From: Aminobacter ciceronei | GTDB taxonomy: Bacteria > Pseudomonadota > Alphaproteobacteria > Rhizobiales > Rhizobiaceae | Assembly: GCF_014138625.1 (NCBI RefSeq) | Contig: NZ_JACJHY010000016.1 | Location: forward strand, 1-64,000 | Length of the DNA stretch: 64,000 nt | Direction of reading: 5' to 3' | Shown here: positions 8,520 to 64,000 of the stretch, piece by piece | Layout: the number at the start of each line of letters is the position of its first letter | Numbering within the stretch: position 1 is the first letter of the stretch | Notes under the pieces: model-generated | Told to the model about the DNA's origin: nothing | Seen by the model: the letters and a program-made list of their open reading frames with translations, nothing else | Database searches by the model: none | Position numbers and translations under genes: made by a program

Positions 8520-8551
8520 AAAAAGCCGCGGCATCGATGCCGCGGCTTTTT
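8520..8551. terminator. Bidirectional rho-independent terminator
   Basis: A perfect 32-bp palindrome: five As, a GCCGCGGC-rich stem, then five Ts. It lies between the phytase-like gene and the convergent STAS gene and should work in both directions. Confidence 0.9.
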
Positions 8552-54000: not shown

Positions 54001-54584
54001 GGACGCTTGTTGACAAGGCGCGGCAAGCCGAGGCGAGAGTGGCTCCGGGGCAGGCTATGTTCGCGACGGCCGTTGCCAAGGCCGCATTCAAGCTGATGGC
54101 CTATAAGGACGAATACGAGGTAGCGCGGCTGCATCGGGATCCGGCCTTCCGGCAAAAGCTCGCCGAGCAGTTCGAAGGCGACTTCAAGCTCCAGTATAAT
54201 CTCGCGCCGCCGATGCTGACCCGTACCGATCCGCGCACCGGCCATCCCGCCAAGATCGCCATCGGCAGCCGCTGGATCGAGCCGGCCTTTGCCGTGCTGG
54301 CTCGCCTCAAGAGCCTGCGTGGCACCCGCTTCGATCCATTCGGCCGCACCGCCGAGCGCAAGATGGAACGCAAACTGGCGGCGGACTACTTCACGCTGGT
54401 CGAGGCGCTTGCCGCCCGCCTGTCGGCTTCAAACCTGGCAATGGCGACAGAGATCGCCAGCCTGGCCGAGACCGTCCGCGGCTATGGCCACATCAAGCTG
54501 GCTGCCGTCGAGCGTTACGAAAAGCGTAAGCTCGAACTGCTCGCCGCATTTGATCAGGCCACGGCTGTAGGGCAGGCGGCCTGA
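51099..54584 (+). CDS. Fused indolepyruvate:ferredoxin oxidoreductase
   Basis: A 1,161-aa single-chain enzyme of the IorA-IorB fusion type. N-terminal pyrimidine-binding part (about 40-300), TPP-binding domain (about 440-600; GDGTYFHSGLLAIRAG), cysteine clusters CEGCGDCSAVSNC (from about 640) and CNTDLSCTKGFC for Fe-S clusters, then the gamma-type domain with GIGGTGVITVSAIL (about 728-741) and a C-terminal conserved extension. It decarboxylates arylpyruvates to aryl-acetyl-CoA with ferredoxin-type reduction. Frame overlap upstream (from 50898) lies inside the dehydrogenase gene; the start at 51099 fits the family. It is coupled in an operon with the hydroxyacid dehydrogenase. Confidence 0.92.
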   Translation: MKAVTSPENGARPVDMPSALDERYTLERGRILVSGTQALVRLPMVQRQRDLAVGLNTAGYVSGYRGSPLAGFDREMASARKHLKESHIVFQPGLNEDMAATAVWGTQQTGMFPGARYDGVFSMWYGKGPGVDRTMDVIRHANAVGTSKHGGVLLLVGDDHGAVSSTLPHQSEHNLISAMVPLLSPVGISEYIDYGLLGWAMSRYSGAWVGFKCQTEIVECSATVDLDPTRLEIVTPDMPLPADGLSMRWPDGQQAMERRLETKLAAVLAFARANRLDRPVWPSPAARLGIVSTGKSWLDLKGALALLGIDEGRAAELGIRLYKVGMVWPLEPEGLREFADGLEQILVVEEKRPVIEEQIKSQLFNQPGDRRPQVFGKTGPDGSPLLPSIGEIGALSVARAILQWLGTDDAGLAARAVQLSTVGAPSPAEPGLLNREPYFCSGCPHSTSTVLPKGSRASTGIGCHMMVIGMERDTSTFTQMGGEGGSWIGLSPFTDEKHIFVNMGDGTYFHSGLLAIRAGIAAKVNATYKILYNDAVAMTGGQRHDGELSVPSIVGQVLAEGAKRVVVVSERPQLLAGLLPRAVDVRHRDELDEVQRELRDVEGVTVLVYDQVCAAEKRRRRKRGTYAVSPKRAFINELVCEGCGDCSAVSNCISIEPRETEFGRKRAINQSSCNTDLSCTKGFCPSFVTVEGGRLRKPRAKAAGGVDAGLAEPSLPRLGDAPYSLLLTGIGGTGVITVSAILSQAAHLDGLSLVTLDQTGLAQKNGAVVSHIRLARQPEMLNAARIGPGEADLVLGFDIVVAASQNAVATFGKGRTRAVVDDHFAPTASFVKDTTIDFRESATLRRLRTAGGEDALTTLPAMKLATALFGDAIAANMFLLGHAWQKGLVPIGREAIEKAIDLNGAGVAMNRAAFAWGRRSVDDMDFVSRQAGTAPASAPEAKSLDEIVAQRVVFLTGYQDAGYAERYRTLVDKARQAEARVAPGQAMFATAVAKAAFKLMAYKDEYEVARLHRDPAFRQKLAEQFEGDFKLQYNLAPPMLTRTDPRTGHPAKIAIGSRWIEPAFAVLARLKSLRGTRFDPFGRTAERKMERKLAADYFTLVEALAARLSASNLAMATEIASLAETVRGYGHIKLAAVERYEKRKLELLAAFDQATAVGQAA

Positions 54585-54605
54585 CGAGCCTGATCCCATC
54601 AACAG

Positions 54606-54635
54606 CCTGAATCGACCACGGCTGATCGATTCAGG
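54606..54635 (+). terminator. Terminator-like hairpin after the oxidoreductase gene
   Basis: CCTGAATCGA and TCGATTCAGG form a perfect 10-bp stem with a 10-base loop, 21 bp after the stop, followed by AGTTTCATT. A weak T-run makes it a moderate terminator candidate. Confidence 0.55.
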
Positions 54636-54679
54636 AGTTTCATTGGACGGTGGGTTCGCCGCGCGCGATTCTGCCGTCC

Positions 54680-54925
54680 ATGCACAAACCGAGCCCCATC
54701 CTGCACCTCCAGCGTCGTGATCCGAGCCGTAACATGGCGCGGTTCTATTGCCTGTCGGTTGAGCGTTCGCTGTTTGGCGACGCGGTGCTGGTGCGCGAAT
54801 GGGGCCGCATAGGTACGCTGGGCCGGAGGCGTCTCGATCTCTTTGCCAACGTTGCCCAAGCGCAGGAGGCGATGCGCCGTTTGATGGTGTCCAAGGTCAA
54901 GCGCGGCTACAGCTCCGTCGGTTGA
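54680..54925 (+). CDS. Small WGR-domain protein
   Basis: An 81-aa protein consisting of a WGR domain: LHLQRRDPSRNMARFYCLSV, LVREWGRIGTLGRRRLDLF and a final helix AQEAMRRLMVSKVKRGY. WGR domains bind nucleic acids in PARPs and bacterial homologues. It is common just upstream of or within rhizobial replicons, with unknown role. Its TGA stop lies inside the first parS palindrome. The ORF opens at 54650; I chose the ATG at 54680, where the domain begins. Confidence 0.8.
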   Translation: MHKPSPILHLQRRDPSRNMARFYCLSVERSLFGDAVLVREWGRIGTLGRRRLDLFANVAQAQEAMRRLMVSKVKRGYSSVG

Positions 54926-54936
54926 CAGCTGTCAAC
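54921..54936. other. parS partition site 1
   Basis: GTTGACAGCTGTCAAC, a perfect 16-bp palindrome fitting the repABC partition consensus (GTTnnCnGCnGnnAAC). RepB should bind here. It overlaps the end of the WGR gene, about 310 bp upstream of repA. Confidence 0.92.
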
Positions 54937-54975
54937 GACGATATGCCGGGACCGAAACGGTCCTCGACGGTCGCC

Positions 54976-55147
54976 GTTACGCCTCCGTCACAATGGTTAA
55001 TTTCCGTTAACTATAAACAAGTTGACTCGACTCGCCCTCTCCAGCACCCTTGTTACGCTAATTGGTCGTAATTCGATGCGTCCAGCGTAACCGCCTCAGA
55101 AAACCGTTATCCACGCTCCGGCACGTTAAAATGTGCGAAGGCGTAAC
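54976..55147. repeat. GTTACGC repeat array upstream of repA
   Basis: GTTACGCC (54976) and GTTACGCT (55052) on the plus strand face AGCGTAAC (55084) and GGCGTAAC (55140) on the minus strand; the middle pair is a perfect 8-bp inverted repeat. An AT-rich GTTAA-TTTCCG-TTAAC repeat lies at 54996-55011. These elements fill the 310-bp gap before repA and are good candidates for the RepA operator and the repABC promoters. Confidence 0.55.
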
Positions 55148-55246
55148 CTGGATTCGGATTCTGCAGCGAATCGGCGCATAAATCTTAACGAAGCCTGACG
55201 GTGCGTCGCTTACGTATGCGCTGCTGGGCGAGAGGGGACTAAAGAC

Positions 55247-56494
55247 TTGGTTGGGGCAGTTCAAGCACGGGCGGAAAACGCGAGCGACGAGGCCGAGGTC
55301 ATGGCGACTGATCGTGCCATTGCGCGGGACGCCGAGATGTTGTCGGCGCAATTGCAGGCAATGCGCGACCGGCTGTTTTCGCCGACCTCGAAGAAGGTCC
55401 TGCGCAAGTTTTCGAGCGGCGAAGCCGCACGTCTGATCGGTGTCACCGACGGCTATCTGCGCCAGCTCTCCATCGCAGGCGAAGGGCCGCAGCCCGAAAC
55501 CGGGGCAGGGGGGCGACGCTACTACGCACTCGACGACATCAACGGGCTGCGCCGGCATCTGGCCGAGCAGAACCCCACCAAGGCGCGCCATTATCTGCCG
55601 CGCCGCGACACCGGGCGTGGCGAACACCTTCAGGTCATCGCTGTCACCAATTTCAAGGGCGGCTCGGGCAAGACCACGACCAGCACGCACCTTGCCCAGC
55701 ATCTTGCGCTGGCCGGTTACCGGGTGCTGGCGATCGATCTCGATCCGCAGGCTTCGATGTCGGCACTGCTGGGCTACCAGCCGGAACTCGATCTCGACGG
55801 CAACGACACGCTCTATGGCGCGATCCGCTATGACGAGGAGCGCCGGCCGCTGACCGACATCATCCGCCGCACCTATTTCGACGGGCTCGACTTCGTGCCC
55901 GGCAATCTTGAGCTTCAGGAGTTCGAGCATACGACGCCGCAGATGCTGGCGGCGCGGCAGGCCGGCGACAACAAGGCGATGTTCTTTGCACGTGTCCAGG
56001 AAGCGCTGCAGACCGTTGCCGACAATTACGACGTCGTCGTCATGGACTGCCCGCCGCAGCTCGGCTTCCTGACCCTGTCGGCGCTGTGCGCGGCGACCTC
56101 GGTGCTGGTGACCATTCATCCGCAGATGCTCGACGTTGCCTCGATGAGCCAGTTCCTGTTCATGACCGCCGACCTTCTGTCGGTGGTGCGGGAGGCCGGC
56201 GGCGAGCTGAATTTCGATTTCATGCGCTACCTGATCACGCGCTACGAGCCCAATGACGGACCGCAGACCCAGATCGTCGGTTTCCTGCGCTCGCTGTTCG
56301 GCGATCGGGTGCTGACCGCGCCGCTGGTCAAGTCGACCGCCTTTTCGGATGCGGGCCTGACCAAGCAGACGCTTTACGAAGTGTCACGTGAGAGCTTCAG
56401 CCGTGCCACCTATGACCGCGCCATGGAGTCGTTGACAGCTGTCAACGGCGAGATCGAGAGCCTGATGCTCAAGGCATGGAACCGGGCGGCGTGA
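55247..56494 (+). CDS. repA: RepA, ParA-type partition ATPase of repABC
   Basis: A 415-aa partition ATPase: N-terminal helix-turn-helix region (about 55-85; SSGEAARLIGVTDGYLRQLS), deviant Walker A FKGGSGKTT (136-144), A' DLDPQAS, and Walker B DVVVMDCPPQLG. It moves replicon copies with RepB-parS complexes and represses the operon. The frame begins with TTG at 55247, 8 bases after AGAGGGGA; ATG 55301 is an alternative start, but residues 1-18 resemble other RepA proteins. The second parS is inside its 3' end. Confidence 0.95.
   Translation: MVGAVQARAENASDEAEVMATDRAIARDAEMLSAQLQAMRDRLFSPTSKKVLRKFSSGEAARLIGVTDGYLRQLSIAGEGPQPETGAGGRRYYALDDINGLRRHLAEQNPTKARHYLPRRDTGRGEHLQVIAVTNFKGGSGKTTTSTHLAQHLALAGYRVLAIDLDPQASMSALLGYQPELDLDGNDTLYGAIRYDEERRPLTDIIRRTYFDGLDFVPGNLELQEFEHTTPQMLAARQAGDNKAMFFARVQEALQTVADNYDVVVMDCPPQLGFLTLSALCAATSVLVTIHPQMLDVASMSQFLFMTADLLSVVREAGGELNFDFMRYLITRYEPNDGPQTQIVGFLRSLFGDRVLTAPLVKSTAFSDAGLTKQTLYEVSRESFSRATYDRAMESLTAVNGEIESLMLKAWNRAA
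56431..56446. other. parS partition site 2 inside repA
   Basis: The same perfect palindrome GTTGACAGCTGTCAAC as site 1, located about 48 bp before the repA stop and 60 bp before repB, where it encodes LTAVN of RepA. Confidence 0.92.
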
Positions 56495-56505
56495 GGGAGG
56501 CTGGC

Positions 56506-57561
56506 ATGGCATTGAACCGCAAGGATCAGCTCAAGGCGCTGTTCGGTACGGTCGAACCGGCGCCTGTGGCCGCAACTCCGACCGAGAAGGCGCCTGAGAC
56601 GAAAACGGCTGAGCCGGATGCCGCGCGCCAGCGCAGCGCCTCTGGAGCCGTCAAGGCCATGGGCCTGTCGCTCGGTGGCCTGTCCAGGGAGATCGAGGAG
56701 GCGCGCAGGCTCAAGGAAAGCCTCGATGCCGCAGAGCGTGTAAGCCAGGTCGACGCGTCACTGATCGAGGCGTCGTTCGTCGCCGACCGGCTCGACCATG
56801 GCGCGCAGGATCCGGATTTCGACGCGCTGGTCAGCAGCATCGAGACGTCTGGGCAGCAGGTTCCGGTGTTGCTCAGGCCGCATCCCGACAAGCCGGGGCG
56901 CTACCAGACCGCCTACGGCCATCGCCGCGTGCGCGCTGCCGGAAAGCTCGGCGTTCCCGTCCTGGCCATCGTCCGGCCGCTCTCCGACGTCGAGCTGGTG
57001 CTCGCCCAGGGTAAGGAAAACAGCGAGCGGCGTGACCTCTCCTTCATCGAGCGGGCGCTGTTCGCCCACGAGCTGATCGCCAGAGGCTTCGAGCGCGCCG
57101 TCGTTCAGGACGCGCTGTCGCTGCACAAGGCCGAGATGACGCGCTTCCTGCAGGTGGCCGACGCGGTGCCTGAACAGGTCGTACGCGCGATCGGCGCGGC
57201 CCCCAAGATTGGCCGTCCGCGCTGGATGGCACTGGCCGAGCTGCTGAAGAGCGAGGCGGCTCGCGTCAAGGCCGACGACGAGGTCACCAGCCAGCGCTTC
57301 CTTGCTGCAACGAGCGACGAACGCTTCAACATGTTGTTCATGCACCTGCAGCGCAAGACGCAGCCAATCGCCGGCGCCGTGCGCGAAATCCGCGATGGCA
57401 AGGGCAGGGCGGTTGCAAGCCTGACTGTTTCCAAGGGCAAAGCCAGGATCGATTTTCTGGAAAAGGCAGCGGATGGGTTCGCAGACTTCCTCGATGAGGA
57501 GTTGCCCAAGCTGTTGGAGAGGTTCGAACAGGAGCGTGGCCGCTCGGCCGGGCAAGGCTAG
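56506..57561 (+). CDS. repB: RepB, ParB-type centromere-binding protein of repABC
   Basis: A 351-aa protein: N-terminal RepA-interaction part (ALNRKDQLKALFG), ParB CTPase-type nuclease fold (about 85-185; QVPVLLRPHPDKPGRYQTAY, GHRRVRAAGKLGVPV, GKENSERRDLSFIE) and helix-turn-helix (VVQDALSLHKAEMTRFLQVA). GGGAGG stands 6 bases before the ATG at 56506. It binds the two parS sites and works with RepA. Confidence 0.95.
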   Translation: MALNRKDQLKALFGTVEPAPVAATPTEKAPETKTAEPDAARQRSASGAVKAMGLSLGGLSREIEEARRLKESLDAAERVSQVDASLIEASFVADRLDHGAQDPDFDALVSSIETSGQQVPVLLRPHPDKPGRYQTAYGHRRVRAAGKLGVPVLAIVRPLSDVELVLAQGKENSERRDLSFIERALFAHELIARGFERAVVQDALSLHKAEMTRFLQVADAVPEQVVRAIGAAPKIGRPRWMALAELLKSEAARVKADDEVTSQRFLAATSDERFNMLFMHLQRKTQPIAGAVREIRDGKGRAVASLTVSKGKARIDFLEKAADGFADFLDEELPKLLERFEQERGRSAGQG

Positions 57562-57680
57562 GTTTGTCCACAGCCAGCGGCACGGGCGTTTGCCTCAACG
57601 CAGCGCCACCCGCTGGTGATGGAGCGTAAAGCGTGGGTTCCAACGCGTAGAGGATCGGAAACAGAAGGATAATCGGCAAG

Positions 57681-57730
57681 AAAAAGGCCCCCGAAACGTC
57701 GCCATTCCGGAAGCCCTCATCAATGTAGCA
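57681..57730 (-). ncRNA. Counter-transcribed RNA (ctRNA, incA) between repB and repC
   Basis: On the minus strand GGCTTCCGGAA pairs through 11 positions (with G-U pairs) with TTTCGGGGGCC, loop TGGCGACG, followed by TTTTT (57681-57685): a rho-independent terminator. Upstream on that strand a perfect TTGACA lies at 57765-57760; the -10 is weak (TTCTCT at 17 bp). The predicted RNA is about 50 nt, the size and place of ctRNAs that limit RepC synthesis and set incompatibility in repABC plasmids. Confidence 0.82.
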
Positions 57731-57795
57731 ATTGTGAGAGAATCATTTCCGGGCCGACTTGTCAACCACTGGACGCGTTCCGGAATGCCTTTGGC

Positions 57796-57813
57796 TTGCC
57801 TCGACTGAGGTAA
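57796..57813 (+). promoter_or_regulatory. S-element-like hairpin occluding the repC ribosome-binding site
   Basis: TTGCCTC pairs with GAGGTAA around a GACT loop, trapping the GAGG that lies 10 bases before the repC ATG. This matches the S structure by which ctRNA binding lowers repC translation. Pairing is read directly; the switch is inferred from known repABC control. Confidence 0.6.
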
Positions 57814-57820
57814 AACAAGG

Positions 57821-59029
57821 ATGACTGAGCATATCTCGACGACGCCCTTTGGGCGGCGGTCGTTGTCGCTTGCCATGGTGGCAGGCCAGATGGCGGCCGA
57901 CAGCTGCGCGCCTGGCGCCAGCTCCAACAAATGGCAGGTGTTCCGTGCCGTCTGCGAGGCCAAGCAATTGCTTGGCGCCAGCGATCGCGCCCTTGCCGTT
58001 CTCAACGCGCTGCTGAGCTTCCATCCCGACACGGATCTCGTGGAAGGGGAGGGGCTGGTGGTATTTCCGTCCAATGCCCAGCTGGCGCTGAGGGCGCATG
58101 GCATGGCGCCGGCGACGCTCAGGCGGCATCTCTCGGTGCTCGTCGACTGCGGCCTGGTGGTGCGCCGCGACAGCCCCAATGGCAAGCGCTATGCCCGCAA
58201 AGGCTTTGACGGTGCGATCGAGCAGGCCTTTGGCTTCGACCTGACGCCGCTTCTGGCCCGTGCCGAAGAATTCGAGCGCATGGCCGAGGCAGTGAGGGCT
58301 GAGCGGCGGTCGCTTCTGCTCGTCCGCGAGCGCATCACCATCCTGCGTCGTGACATCGCCAAGATGATCGCATTCGGCCTCGAGGAGGGCATTGCGGCTG
58401 ATTGGCCACGCCTGCATCTCAGTTATCGTGACATAGTGGCGGCTATTCCACGCACGGCGAGCCGGCTTGAGCTCGAACCGATTGCCGCCGAGCTGGCTGC
58501 GCTTGCCCAGGAGGTACGCAAGGCGCTGGAAAGTCACGTAAAAACTGAAGAAACAAGCGCCAATGAGTCTCATTCCGAGCGCCACATACAGAATTCAAAT
58601 ACACACCCTCATGAATTTGAACCCGGCCTCGAGAAAGGCCAAGGGACGGCCGCTGCGGTGAAACCTGAAACCAGGAGCCAGCCGCCAACGGGTTATCCGC
58701 TTGGCATGGTGCTGCGTGCCTGCCCTGACATTGCGGACTACGCACGAAACGGCATTTCGGGCTGGGCGGATCTGGTGGAAACGGCAAATCTAGTGCGCGG
58801 CGCGCTCGGCGTCAGTCCGGATGCCTGGAACCAGGCCTGCGAGGCGATGGGGGCGGTGGATGCAGCGATCATGGTGGCGGCGATGCTGCAGAAGGGCGAG
58901 GCGATTTCCAGCCCGGGCGGCTATCTGCGTAGCCTGACGGCGAAAGCGCGGGCCGGTGAATTCTCGATCGGGCCGGTGCTCATGGCGCTGCTGCGCGGCA
59001 GGGGAGGGGCCCAGGCCAAAGCGGGATGA
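57821..59029 (+). CDS. repC: RepC replication initiator of repABC
   Basis: A 402-aa initiator: N-terminal DNA-binding domain (about 1-265; NKWQVFRAVCEAKQLLGASD, LVVFPSNAQLALRAHGMA, TLRRHLSVLVDCGLVVRRDS) with a winged-helix core, a variable linker and a C-terminal domain (about 290-395). It is the sole essential replication protein of this plasmid class. The AT-rich middle of the gene is the expected origin. It is convergent with the recombinase gene. Confidence 0.95.
   Translation: MTEHISTTPFGRRSLSLAMVAGQMAADSCAPGASSNKWQVFRAVCEAKQLLGASDRALAVLNALLSFHPDTDLVEGEGLVVFPSNAQLALRAHGMAPATLRRHLSVLVDCGLVVRRDSPNGKRYARKGFDGAIEQAFGFDLTPLLARAEEFERMAEAVRAERRSLLLVRERITILRRDIAKMIAFGLEEGIAADWPRLHLSYRDIVAAIPRTASRLELEPIAAELAALAQEVRKALESHVKTEETSANESHSERHIQNSNTHPHEFEPGLEKGQGTAAAVKPETRSQPPTGYPLGMVLRACPDIADYARNGISGWADLVETANLVRGALGVSPDAWNQACEAMGAVDAAIMVAAMLQKGEAISSPGGYLRSLTAKARAGEFSIGPVLMALLRGRGGAQAKAG
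58535..58630. other. AT-rich segment inside repC, candidate oriV
   Basis: Between the two RepC domains the base composition drops sharply (AAAAACTGAAGAAAC, ATACAGAATTCAAATACAC). TTCAAAT (58594-58600) and ATTTGAA (58615-58621) form an inverted repeat. In studied repABC plasmids the replication origin maps to an AT-rich stretch in the middle of repC, so this is the best candidate. Confidence 0.6.
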
Positions 59030-59289
59030 CGCCGGGCGGGCAGAAGCTGGGTGGCAGCTGAATTCCGGTCGGGACATCGATCACTGCCTTGGGGAAGCTG
59101 CGGCGGGTAGAGGAAGCTACAACTCCGAAGCGGGCCGCGTTCTACCAGGCACAGCAATTTGCTTGGGGAGGGATCTGCGGCGGGCTACTGATATGCCGTG
59201 GCAATCGCACGCGGATCTCATCGAGGTGCTTTGTGTGACCGGGGCGGCATTCTCAAATGCGTCCAATTCCGGAGTTGGAGGGGAGGGCG

Positions 59290-60546
59290 CTAGAGTCCAC
59301 TCGCCTTGGTGAGATTGACGCGGAAGCGGTCGCGGCGGCGCTGGTACGTGCGGGTCATTTCTGCACTGGCATGGCCGAGCTGCTTCTGCACGTAGCGCTC
59401 CTCGACCTCGGCCGAAGAGGCAAGGCCAGCACGCAGCGAATGGCCGGCAAAAAGCCCGGTCCGTTCGGACTCGGTCAGATCGCCGCGGACGCCGGCGGCA
59501 AGGGCGGTACGTTTGACCAGACGGGCGATTTCCTGGTCGTTGAGCCGTTCGGTGCCGACCTTTTTGCCTTGACCGGTCACGCGGCGAAACAGTGGGCCAT
59601 GGGAAATGCGGGCAAGGTTCAGCCAGGTCTCCAGGGCCACGACAGGGCAGGTGGAGTCGGCCGATCCACGGCCGATCTCAACCTCGCGCCAGCCGGTCTT
59701 GCCACGCAAGGTGACCAATATGCCCTTGCCGGGGAAGATCTCGATCCAGCCCGAAGAATCCTGGGTCTGATCGCGGCCGCAATCGAGGCCAACGATCTCG
59801 GAGCGGCGCAGCGCACCGGCAAAGCCGAGCAGCAGCATCGCCCGATCTCTTAGGCCGCGCAGGGTCCTCCTGTCGAGCGTCTCCAGCATGGCGATCAAAT
59901 CTTCGGGCAGGATCGCTTCCTTCTGCCGGGGAGGGCGGGCGTGGGCATTGCGGATGCCGGCCATGACGGTCGCGATGGCACGGTGTTTCCGGTCGAGCTT
60001 TTCTGTCCCGCGCTGGGCATAGTTCCAGCTCAGGGACGCGAGCCGTCGTTCGATGGTCGACACGGATTTTTTGTCGCCGATGCCGGCGCCGGAAGCGAGC
60101 GCGGTGATGTAGAGCCCGACGGTCTCGGGATCCGGCGGCATGGTGGCAAAACCCTGGCGCTGGGCCCAGTCGGAAAAGTGCTTCCAGTCGGCGGCGTAGG
60201 CGCGCCGGGTGTTGGCGGAACTGGCCGCCTTGACATAACCGCGCGCCCGTTCAGCCAGATCGCCGAGCTGGCCCATAAGGCCGCCGGAGGGCATGACGTC
60301 GACAGATGGCAGGGTAGGGGAGGGGGCCTTGTCGTCCGAACCTACGGCGTCAGATTGCGGCGCATTCACCGGCTCCGCTTGCCAGCCCATTGCCATCACG
60401 ACATCGACAATGTCAGGCAGGTCATCGACGGAGACAACGTCATGACAGCGATTCTTATCCAGAATAGCGTTTTCAGAGGTGCTCTCTCGTCGAGGCGAAC
60501 GCAGTTTGCTATGGTTTTCCGGATTTTGCTCGACGTTAGAGGCCAT
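59290..60546 (-). CDS. Tyrosine recombinase (phage-integrase/Xer type)
   Basis: A 418-aa recombinase: core-binding SAM-like domain at about 105-200 (SANTRRAYAADWKHFSDWAQ) and catalytic domain at about 210-405. Catalytic residues are all visible: R in GALRRSE (247/248), K283 in RGKTG, H369-xx-R372 in HSLRAG, H392 in LGHAS and nucleophile Y401 in RTYQRR. A nonconserved N-terminal 100 aa precedes. Its place beside repABC suggests dimer resolution of the replicon rather than phage integration. The lox-like repeat at 60562-60598 lies 16 bp from its start. Confidence 0.9.
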   Translation of the reverse strand: MASNVEQNPENHSKLRSPRRESTSENAILDKNRCHDVVSVDDLPDIVDVVMAMGWQAEPVNAPQSDAVGSDDKAPSPTLPSVDVMPSGGLMGQLGDLAERARGYVKAASSANTRRAYAADWKHFSDWAQRQGFATMPPDPETVGLYITALASGAGIGDKKSVSTIERRLASLSWNYAQRGTEKLDRKHRAIATVMAGIRNAHARPPRQKEAILPEDLIAMLETLDRRTLRGLRDRAMLLLGFAGALRRSEIVGLDCGRDQTQDSSGWIEIFPGKGILVTLRGKTGWREVEIGRGSADSTCPVVALETWLNLARISHGPLFRRVTGQGKKVGTERLNDQEIARLVKRTALAAGVRGDLTESERTGLFAGHSLRAGLASSAEVEERYVQKQLGHASAEMTRTYQRRRDRFRVNLTKASGL

Positions 60547-60561
60547 TTCGGCAGTAGGCCA

Positions 60562-60598
60562 TCAAATGAATGATAAGGCAAGATTATCGTTCATTTGA
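60562..60598. repeat. Lox-like inverted repeat next to the recombinase gene
   Basis: Left arm TCAAATGAATGATA and right arm TATCGTTCATTTGA match at 13 of 14 positions as inverted repeats around AGGCAAGAT. Two binding arms and a short spacer of this size are typical of tyrosine-recombinase crossover sites (loxP is 13-8-13). It could instead be an autoregulatory operator of the recombinase gene. Confidence 0.5.
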
Positions 60599-60776
60599 CG
60601 TGATCGACAGGCTGTGCGCTTTAGATGCCAAGAGCGAACGTAACCGCACAATTGAGATGCGATGCCCTTCGCTTTGGGGACACAATTTCTGGCCGCTGCT
60701 TGTTAGGGTTGCAACGGTTGAACCCGATCTGCCGATCTGCTTCAACAGTGATCCTAGCTCGCGCAGGGGACGTGAG

Positions 60777-61763
60777 ATGGTAGGTTCTGACCGGATCGAC
60801 GACCTGATCGCAGCGGTGCCTCGCGCCTTGGCGCTTCGCGCCGGTTTGGACCTTGGCATCTTCACCCAGCTCGGGGACAGTGCGTTGACGGCTGACGGCC
60901 TCGGAACCCTGTTCAACATCGCCCCCGATCGTCTGTCGCGGCTCCTCTACGCGCTCGCCAGCTTCGGTCTACTCGAAGTCGAGGATGGTCGATTTCGAAA
61001 TGGAGCCGAAGCGTCGGCTTTTCTTGACGCATCCAAGAAGACCTATCGTGGTGGTGATCATGCGCTTCTGCGCGAGCTCTGGGGAGCCGACCTGCTGACT
61101 GCAGAGTCGCTGCGACAGAGCCGGCCGGCTGCACTGCACGACTTTTCGCAAGCGGGGCCTGAGGCCGCCGCGGCCTTCAGCCGAAAGCTGGCGCCAGGCG
61201 CCGCAATTTTCGGCCGATACCTGGCCCAGGAGATTGACCTCTCTGCGATCGGATCGGTGATCGACATTGGCGGGGGCCCCGGGACCATCCTCGTCGGGCT
61301 TCGCGAGCGATGGCCGCGCATCGCCGCGACACTGATGGAGCTTCCGACGGTTGCAGCGGCCGCGCCAGAAATCCTGTCGGAATACGGTGTCGATGACGTG
61401 GTTGTCGAAGAGGGGGACATCACCGTTGCGCCATCAATCGGTCGGCACGATCTGGCGATCCTGAAAGCCGTCGTTCAGGTCCTTCCGCCTGATCAGGCAC
61501 GCCGTTCGATCCTGAACGCGGCGCGTTGTCTCACGCCGGGAGGCGAGATCGCGATTGCGGGCTGGGGTGTCGTCGACGACGACCGCCTCGGCCCGCCTGA
61601 AGGTGTCTTTCTGAACCTCACCTTCTTGAACCTTTATCGCCACGGCGAATCGTACACCGAAGGCCAGTATCGCGCGTGGATGACCGAGGCTGGATTCGGG
61701 GATATATCCAGGTCGCGCCTGGCGGACGGCTGCACGTTGTTTCGAGCGCGCCTTGCGGGCTGA
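60777..61763 (+). CDS. SAM-dependent O-methyltransferase-family protein with altered active site
   Basis: A 328-aa protein: N-terminal winged-helix dimerisation domain (about 1-85; PRALALRAGLDLGIF, LSRLLYALASFGLLEVEDG) and a Rossmann methyltransferase domain with motif I VIDIGGGPGTILVGL (about 157-171). The position where plant-type O-methyltransferases carry the catalytic His (LKxVLHDW) reads LKAVVQVLPPDQ, so the base is missing. Related bacterial proteins can methylate with another residue or do other SAM chemistry. AGGGGA precedes the ATG at 60777; the frame opens at 60570. Substrate unknown. Confidence 0.75.
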   Translation: MVGSDRIDDLIAAVPRALALRAGLDLGIFTQLGDSALTADGLGTLFNIAPDRLSRLLYALASFGLLEVEDGRFRNGAEASAFLDASKKTYRGGDHALLRELWGADLLTAESLRQSRPAALHDFSQAGPEAAAAFSRKLAPGAAIFGRYLAQEIDLSAIGSVIDIGGGPGTILVGLRERWPRIAATLMELPTVAAAAPEILSEYGVDDVVVEEGDITVAPSIGRHDLAILKAVVQVLPPDQARRSILNAARCLTPGGEIAIAGWGVVDDDRLGPPEGVFLNLTFLNLYRHGESYTEGQYRAWMTEAGFGDISRSRLADGCTLFRARLAG

Positions 61764-61968
61764 TCCGTCGGCTTTCACGATTGATCGGCCTGCTTTCGAC
61801 CTTGCATGGCCTCAGCGCGGACTGACAGCAGCTGGCGCCGAACGTGACGTTGGAACGCGGCGTGCAAGCATCTACCCGGGCCGCCCTCGTCGTCTTACCC
61901 GCCAGCCAATCACTTTGTTTTGGATTTGGCGGCCCGACAGCACGGAAACGTCAGATCAAATTGCGGCC

Positions 61969-62262
61969 TTATGCCAGGTCGATCAGCGCTTCAGCGGTCT
62001 TCGCGCATGTGGCCAGGTGCGTTGCAAATCCACCATTAAGCGTGGCGCGAATTGAAAGCACCCTGTCAGTTCCGCACGAGGTGAGCAGGCCAATTTCCTT
62101 GTCGCGCATGTCGTCGAGCGCGATGCCGATCATGCGATGGTCGATCTCTCCGGGGATGGCTTGACCGTTCGCTTCGATAAACCGTCCGCAGACGACTGCC
62201 TGTGCACCTTTTGCAGGATAGGCGTCGAGCTGCTCGAGGTTCACGACTTCGCTACGAACGAC
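61969..62262 (-). pseudogene. 3' remnant of a SorC-family sugar-binding regulator
   Basis: About 97 codons resemble the C-terminal end of SorC/DeoR-type sugar-responsive regulators: a VVCGRFIEANGQAI segment, then IDHRMIGIALDDMR and a final GGFATHLATCAKTAEALI. The DNA-binding helix-turn-helix and most of the sugar domain are absent, and the upstream 100 bp do not extend the match. It sits directly downstream of rhaD on the same strand, probably the leftover of a sugar-operon regulator lost in a rearrangement. Confidence 0.6.
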
Positions 62263-62401
62263 ATGGCTGTCAGGACCGCATGAGCCGGCCGACGAACATT
62301 GGAGACGGAAAATGCCCGACTGAAATCGACGATGACCTGCTGCCAGGCGGCAGGTCACAACTCCGGTCATCCGACCGCAGTCAAACCCCCCACGAAACCG
62401 G

Positions 62402-62444
62402 GAGCCGGCAGGTGCTGACTTTTTTGCCGCCCTTTTGCCGGCTC
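62402..62444 (-). terminator. Possible hairpin downstream of rhaD
   Basis: GAGCCGGCA and TGCCGGCTC form a perfect 9-bp inverted repeat with a 25-base loop, about 20 bp after the rhaD stop. The long loop and lack of a T-run make termination uncertain. Confidence 0.3.
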
Positions 62445-62462
62445 AGGGAATTCTAACGAGCA

Positions 62463-64000
<1,538 letters not shown>

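Follow-up and report, generated by a model that had tools for sequence, protein, structure and literature searches.

A conserved lox-like repeat beside a Cre-like recombinase gene of repABC plasmids is a probable crossover site for plasmid dimer resolution

A lox-like inverted repeat upstream of a tyrosine recombinase gene in a repABC replicon of Aminobacter ciceronei is, in our judgement, probably the crossover site of that Cre-like enzyme, site and enzyme together forming a plasmid dimer-resolution system. The repeat lies in a window of 64,000 nucleotides (positions 1 to 64,000 of contig NZ_JACJHY010000016.1, itself 156,335 bp long), and comparison with related loci indicates that it is one copy of a conserved site that stands beside this enzyme in many large plasmids of soil and marine bacteria; perhaps it is also autoregulatory. 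A first-pass annotation of the window had already read the repeat as lox-like, and this reading is strengthened by conservation of the site upstream of the gene, by the fixed orientation of its spacer and by natural junctions at its core. The repABC replicons include symbiosis plasmids, tumour-inducing plasmids and many accessory megaplasmids, and while their replication and partition are well studied, how they escape from dimers is little described. With a defined 60-bp site-plus-box and a candidate enzyme, this question becomes testable.

On the forward strand the repeat reads TCAAATGAATGATAA-GGCAAGA-TTATCGTTCATTTGA, that is, two 15-nt arms pairing at 14 of 15 positions around a 7-nt spacer, which becomes TCTTGCC when read toward the recombinase on the minus strand (Table 1). 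The 14-nt arms and 9-nt spacer reported previously describe this same repeat, parsed with one base less on each inner side, and the repeat is real. As the recombinase start codon occupies 60544-60546, 15 nt (60547-60561) lie between it and the repeat. Repeats of this quality - 15-nt arms with at most one mismatch and a spacer of 0-12 nt - arise by chance at a mean of 0.083 per 64 kb (60 first-order Markov resamples of the window), and one of equal quality appeared in 7 of 1500 resamples of the surrounding 3 kb. The window holds one other 15-nt-arm repeat of equal quality, a symmetric, spacer-less one at 8520-8550 (near 8535). A genome search for a second copy, which the first-pass annotation had proposed as a check, found a single copy of the full site in the host assembly, and likewise a single occurrence of the wider core pattern GATAANNTTGCMTTATC.

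Table 1. Features of the replication and recombinase region of the window (positions in the window).
Feature	Position	Strand	Basis or description
repA	55247-56494	plus	AAA_31/CbiA, ParA-type; annotated repA in near-identical Aminobacter plasmids
repB	56476-57561	plus	PF07506
repC	57821-59029	plus	PF03428, PF11800
Tyrosine recombinase rec1, 418 aa, presumed cognate enzyme	59290-60546	minus	PF00589, E 9.2e-12
Inferred recombinase promoter	60553-60581	minus	-35 TTGCCT 60576-60581, 17-nt gap, weak -10 CCTACT 60553-60558
Whole lox-like inverted repeat	60562-60598	minus	arms 60562-60576 and 60584-60598
Conserved core GATAA-N7-TTATC	60572-60588	minus	reads GATAA TCTTGCC TTATC
Spacer TCTTGCC, presumed strand-exchange (overlap) region	60577-60583	minus	spacer conservation in relatives
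Accessory box AAAGCGCACAGCCTGTCG	60605-60622	minus	16 nt from core, gene-distal side

The nearest plasmids to the host contig are of Aminobacter, pMDW1 of Aminobacter sp. MDW-2 being 98.6% identical over window positions 55000-62500. The recombinase, rec1, combines the PF00589 domain with the R, K, H-x-x-R, H/W and nucleophilic Y of tyrosine site-specific recombinases: R247/R248, K283, H369, R372, H392 and Y401, to which we presumptively assign these catalytic roles, are invariant in an alignment of 33 sequences. Its best solved relative in a profile search of the PDB is Cre (E 1.4e-5). AlphaFold2 models of the recombinase are poor (mean pLDDT 49.7 and 57.8), and a fold search with the second, still weak model, in which Cre came top (E 6.7e-7, TM about 0.36, rmsd 18 Å), mildly supports a likeness to Cre. 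Membership of XerC, XerD, XerS or XerA was rejected, rec1 falling below all curated Xer cut-offs (best NCBIfam match TIGR02225, 52.3 bits against a required 329.6; the other six are also below). The host genome has a second homologue with 67% identity to rec1 on another contig (C15), and this homologue has its own unlike repeat of like build, TATGTCCGGTAA-GCTTCCA-TTACCGGACATA.

Conservation of the site was assessed in 182 loci, comprising 80 related loci, the window, the C15 locus (L005) and 100 stretches drawn from 118 match rows (77 of 247 genomes of the family had a match; 14 weaker or partial rows outside the host were left out, and two lay inside stretches already counted). Collapsing loci with identical 700-nt gene ends gave 157 distinct modules. 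A first inverted-repeat scan of 81 loci, with too strict a threshold, returned no repeat in 60; a motif search then located the site in most of those 60, often at a distance. The core GATAA-N7-TTATC, with small departures allowed, lies upstream of the gene in 133 of the 157 modules, so the site is kept with the gene, as the annotation's proposed conservation check required. In 132 of these 133 the TT at spacer positions 3-4 faces the gene, and in 127 positions 3-5 are TTG. The common spacers are TGTTGCA (39 modules), TCTTGCA (36), TGTTGCC (13) and GTTTGCA (10), the window's own TCTTGCC occurring in three. The symmetric arms around a spacer within 6-8 nt that stand beside the gene in the window often do not directly adjoin it in relatives. 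The stretch searched contained no site in 24 modules, seven of which have less than 1 kb upstream and 15 of which are unexplained; in the other two (L168 and L220) an exact core lies about 5.1 kb upstream.

The near one-to-one ratio of cores to genes is what a dimer-resolution system needs. Among 13 genomes chosen for their few contigs, nine had exact cores, 17 of them to 16 recombinase genes, and every one of the 16 genes has a core upstream on the same strand, close to one core per module. The 17th core belongs to a decayed second module (L245:8716-8732; NZ_CP045494 23715-23731). This module, of Mesorhizobium sp. NBSH29, lies 60 kb from the intact one on the same plasmid and consists of fragmented Tni, DUF1403, ScpB and recombinase genes. 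As for the remaining chosen genomes, two (G542 and G524) have at their genes cores with one mismatch, one (G426) has a GGTAA type and one (G449) has unlinked one-mismatch matches only.

Across the order, GATAANNTTGCMTTATC is present in 16 of 397 genomes, host included, and its reversed control in one. Ten of the 16 have a recombinase match within 1.5 kb, and an eleventh (L088) has recombinase fragments; four of the other five carry the DUF1403 and ScpB genes of the module (one, L237, also has a recombinase 4.0 kb away), leaving L236 alone to resemble a chance match. A core likewise precedes the gene in single plasmids of Pseudosulfitobacter, Methylocystis (spacer TGTGGGC), Cereibacter (left half GGTAA) and Paracoccus. 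In viral contigs the core pattern occurs in at least 120 stretches, a pattern that we judged too AT-rich for phage DNA. Three assembly contigs end at the core or within 15 nt of it (L039:1, L083:15, L153:14), which possibly reflects branching from active recombination, or else chance.

When 129 distinct sites, each with 60 nt of flank, are summarised as a logo numbered from the first base of GATAA, conservation covers the core, the arm positions as far as about -9/+25 and, at -34 to -17, a box, AAAcCGCacnGCnTGTCG, which is always 16 nt from the core and is present in both near (38) and far (49) sites. Pairing between the arms, counted in 131 of the 133 sites, exceeds that in shuffles, which ignore relatedness, at -3/19 (83% against 54%), at -2/18 (60% against 40%) and also at -7/23 and 1/15, with none of 500 shuffles as high. 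At -1/17, -5/21, -8/24 and -9/25 it is at most slightly above shuffles, and at -10 to -12 it is absent; several inner arm positions are invariant and hence uninformative on pairing. An accessory protein that lends the site polarity or control probably binds at the box. Three other Aminobacter plasmids cease to be homologous to the window at its positions 60622, 60622 and 60629. Taken alone, the box pattern has 46 matches in the host genome against 17 for its reversed control, being too loose to interpret.

Evidence bearing on the crossover itself comes from plasmids that share one side of the site only. Two loci, L046 and L049, align at 99.2% over 4,741 bp from exactly the first core base, with left flanks that have little in common beyond one 0.6-kb part matching at about 75%. 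Together with a third, the Mesorhizobium plasmid MesoLj131c2 (L244), they combine a common right side (99.5-100% identity across 1.5 kb) with three left sides that are 49-65% identical in their last 100 bp; both pairs that include L046 have their final mismatch at -1 and L244/L049 has its at -8, with none inside the core. A shared right side with differing left sides is the trace that would be expected from crossover within the core, though homologous recombination ending there by chance is a possible source. Nine close pairs of loci show a contrast between left and right. The change point is at -33 in three of them (L132/L133, L056/L059 and L052/L055, the blastn alignment of the last running through the site), at the outer edge of the box, where conservation of box and site as one unit would place it; in the other six it falls at -4, -3, -1, 0, +11 and +36, one each. 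Change points are thus near the core, and only some are inside it.

We envisage that one recombinase monomer would bind each arm (about 11-15 bp, with GATAA innermost), that two sites would pair in a synapse of recombinase dimers and that strands would be swapped across the 7-nt spacer. When homologous recombination fuses two plasmid copies, the resulting dimer would carry two directly repeated sites, and exchange between them would yield two monomers, so that a low-copy repABC plasmid could be partitioned. Directionality may come from the box.

The other genes of the module came as a surprise: its usual neighbours are ScpB and DUF1403. A DUF1403 gene starts within 250 bp of the site, pointing away from it, in 114 of 152 sited loci (not collapsed; 143 have at least 400 bp to the left), and ScpB (PF04079) follows DUF1403 in the annotated plasmids looked at, except in Cereibacter, where the stretch ends in DUF1403. 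On the host plasmid DUF1403 lies at C16:131581-132495 (L232, L234), 71 kb from the recombinase, with a partial box copy, GGCTGTGCGCTTTAG, upstream of it and, by eye, perhaps a decayed site there too. One or more of repA, repB and repC is in the stretch of 39 of 59 distinct modules on named contigs (36 of the 54 with 3.9 kb downstream), and the module is therefore tied to repABC, but not exclusively. With ScpB and DUF1403 linked to it, the module may be under the control of the segregation machinery. In a literature search of papers open without subscription, no paper was found that mentions 'DUF1403', or that treats ScpB, plasmid and repABC together. These partners, the promoter overlap, the accessory box and the transposon connection are additions to the first-pass annotation.

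Transposons of the Tni type are found at the site and around it. All five modules with a measured site-to-gene gap above 3.5 kb (L141, L147, L156, L170 and L231, a count that leaves out L168 and L220 at about 5 kb) hold TniA and TniB in that gap and four of them also TniQ, the genes in the L170 copy matching Mu-transpos_C, TniB and TniQ in a profile test; in four of the five, distances of 48, 69, 96 and 48 nt separate the transposon end from the core. Five more loci (L074, L081, L135, L183 and L209) have Tni matches elsewhere. Tn5053/Tn402 transposons, with tniABQ, are 'res site hunters' that favour resolution sites (PMC7765201), and by analogy the Tni relatives may hunt the present site; ordinary tolerance of intergenic insertion fits too. 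The site may explain the placement of some transposons and toxin-antitoxin modules in these plasmids.

That a transposon can carry the whole module was unexpected. In Rhizobium leguminosarum Vaf10, a 6,745-bp unit of TniABQ, ScpB, DUF1403, site and recombinase is identical on four plasmids of the one strain (copies include L370:2252-8996, L371 and L372), and in the three copies examined both ends are, by eye, an 11-nt inverted repeat, TGTGGCTTTTA; these three copies have no clear target duplication, and an automated search of the transposon for terminal repeats of at least 12 nt found none. Relatives covering 89-95% of the unit are in Agrobacterium and Roseibium plasmids, and similar units are on three Roseibium aggregatum plasmids (CP045618-CP045620). 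Since the module rides on a transposon, its selected job may be cointegrate resolution: it could primarily be a transposon system, the counterpart of Tn5053 res-tniR or Tn4430 TnpI, often left behind or captured beside repABC. In keeping with this, five of 157 modules have the right-end repeat, with at most one mismatch, 88-96 nt past the gene, and the repeat is anywhere to the right in 11 of 157 against four and two for two opposite-orientation controls. To the left of the gene, though, it is no commoner than its control (2 against 2 of 157), Tni matches are in only 10 of the 152 sited loci (stretches searched, not collapsed), and the window has no Tni match in 54001-64000 and no end repeat in 58001-64000. 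The rep genes near two-thirds of the modules on named contigs also fit a plasmid function, and the mechanism at the site would be identical either way; we consider a primary role in cointegrate resolution unlikely. A broader scheme, which we offer as speculation and would not expect to hold as a whole, is that plasmid ScpB (a condensin-type subunit) and DUF1403 control recombinase and site through the box across the alphaproteobacteria, tying dimer resolution to segregation, with some Tni transposons having adopted the system as their cointegrate resolver and others hunting it as a target.

An operator is a serious rival to a crossover site because the repeat in the window overlaps the inferred recombinase promoter. 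This promoter was placed by comparison with near-class relatives that have a TTTATA-like -10 at the same place, a strict consensus scan of window positions 59000-61000 having returned none, and its predicted transcript would be leaderless. The near class comprises 38 distinct sites, including that of the window, in which the start codon is a constant 26 nt or so past the core end, the TTGC of the spacer is at the -35 place and a TTTATA-like -10 follows at the right distance, about +30 to +35. From this layout, the near-class site probably also acts on the promoter of the recombinase gene, and bound enzyme would there repress its own gene, the site overlapping the promoter. The stronger claim is that the repeat is a transcription operator and nothing else, the recombinase or another repressor sitting on the palindrome over the -35 to repress a leaderless gene, and the pairing of the arms would suit this as it would any dimeric binding site.

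An operator should stay with its promoter, but in 51 distinct cases the site and the recombinase match are over 600 bp apart, and core and box are both retained in this far class. In 25 of the 51 there is neither any of the listed -10-like strings nor an ATGGC start, and all 25 keep the TTG spacer. These 25 are not all independent, as L046/L049 and L013/L057 share a right side, and weak or unlike promoters may escape the string list; four of them (L071, L078, L175 and L223) are also without detectable DUF1403 in at least 1.2 kb on the other side. Since such sites are kept without a recognisable promoter, a pure operator role is unlikely. Nor does it predict junctions at the core, and operator and crossover roles can coexist, so that we rate the operator-only outcome, which the first-pass annotation had named as its refutation, as quite improbable. 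Several far sites also have surroundings in which a pure operator would not be expected to persist: in L027 and L036 the nearest right-hand ORF points toward the site and is, by eye, helix-turn-helix antitoxin-like; in Cereibacter (L242) five annotated opposite-strand genes lie between site and recombinase; and some, such as L020, precede a remnant of the recombinase N-terminus.

It is more improbable again that the repeat is an attachment site (attP or att) of an integrating element with the enzyme as its integrase. The enzyme does belong to the phage-integrase fold family and matches PHROG integrase families, but there is about one site per module, and nothing among the 16 core genomes, ten of them with the recombinase within 1.5 kb, points to an att system. 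We give almost no credence to the repeat being parS or another RepA/RepB-binding palindrome, even though repC is 1.5 kb away and the parS sites of repABC plasmids are palindromes close to that gene: the known ones, a 16-bp GGTNNGNGCNCNNACC palindrome (PMC10194956) and, in Rhodobacteraceae, a 14-nt palindrome (PMC5613091), are not arm-7-arm repeats, GGTNNGNGCNCNNACC at up to one mismatch is absent at the site (the window has three one-mismatch matches against 3.64 expected), and the site tracks the recombinase, at up to 5 kb, and not repABC.

If the repeat is a crossover site, the module would work like one of the Cre/lox or XerS/dif type. loxP has 13-bp arms and an 8-bp spacer, and Cre/loxP of the phage-plasmid P1 is similar in that a single tyrosine recombinase encoded on a plasmid has an inverted-repeat site of its own close to the gene. 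It differs from the present module in the GATAA arms, 7-nt spacer, one-sided box, ScpB-DUF1403 neighbours and near-class promoter overlap of the latter, and identity to Cre is low (15-21% in fold alignments of the weak model). As in the tniABQ-res-tniR arrangement of Tn5053/Tn402 and the TnpI-IRS system of Tn4430, a resolution module here travels with transposition genes, TniABQ being linked to it in some plasmids; the Tn5053 resolvase is a serine resolvase and TnpI a tyrosine recombinase of a Tn3-family element, and we know of no ScpB or DUF1403 counterpart in Tn5053/Tn402 or Tn4430. For Tn5053, the joint carriage of resolution and transposition genes is described in PMC7765201. XerS/difSL and XerH/difH, in each of which dimers are resolved by one Xer-like recombinase whose gene adjoins a dif-like site of its own (PMC5357621), share the single recombinase next to its site, but they are chromosomal and FtsK-linked, and difSL has an 11-bp central region, whereas the site described here is on plasmids near repABC and has a 7-nt spacer and an accessory box.

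A role in resolution has already been proposed in print for a Cre-like recombinase next to repABC. The 'xerD' (CDS5) of pSmeLPU88b is a Cre-like recombinase downstream of repABC that has been linked to concatemer resolution (PMC10194956); we liken it to rec1 by this description, and the available text of that paper describes no site, ScpB-DUF1403 link or recombinase test for it. RinQ of Rhizobium etli p42d, a site-specific recombinase near repABC studied for incompatibility (cited in PMC10194956), differs in belonging to the invertase/resolvase (gamma-delta) family (PMC10194956). In the same search of papers open without subscription, no publication was found that describes the site, the box or the linkage to ScpB-DUF1403, and the literature yielded no recombination or binding assay for any member of the family, which could supply new recombinase/site pairs for genetic tools.

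The comparison of modules that reside together in one genome gave an unforeseen result. We had predicted that co-resident plasmids would differ in spacer, and this failed: 11 of 21 within-genome pairs share it, whereas pairs from different genomes with comparable recombinase identity predict 4.9 of 21 (p about 0.003 by simulation), and same-genus pairs from different genomes also share it in 13 of 41 cases. The arms of co-resident modules mostly differ although the spacer is often shared. Spacer sharing may reflect exchange or homogenisation between co-resident sites, or just shared plasmid pools; with the spacer shared by 11 of 21 pairs, the enzyme might fuse plasmids as well, unless it is given direction or the accessory part prevents such fusion.

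A second family of tyrosine recombinases, 26-29% identical to the rec1 family in alignment, has a site of its own about 0.1-1.3 kb upstream, of the form CACTATCGATAA-N7-TTATCGATAGTG or close to it. It is represented on contig C15 (site L005:9675-9691, gene L005:10646-11818) and in L017, L029, L061, L073, L074, L081 and L146. In L036 the site (L036:2436-2452) is a hybrid, its left half and left neighbour being those of the second recombinase and its right half that of the rec1 family, and the left part of this locus is 97.6% identical to C15 over 2.3 kb. The L209 site and one of the L081 sites (L081:9000-9016) also look hybrid.
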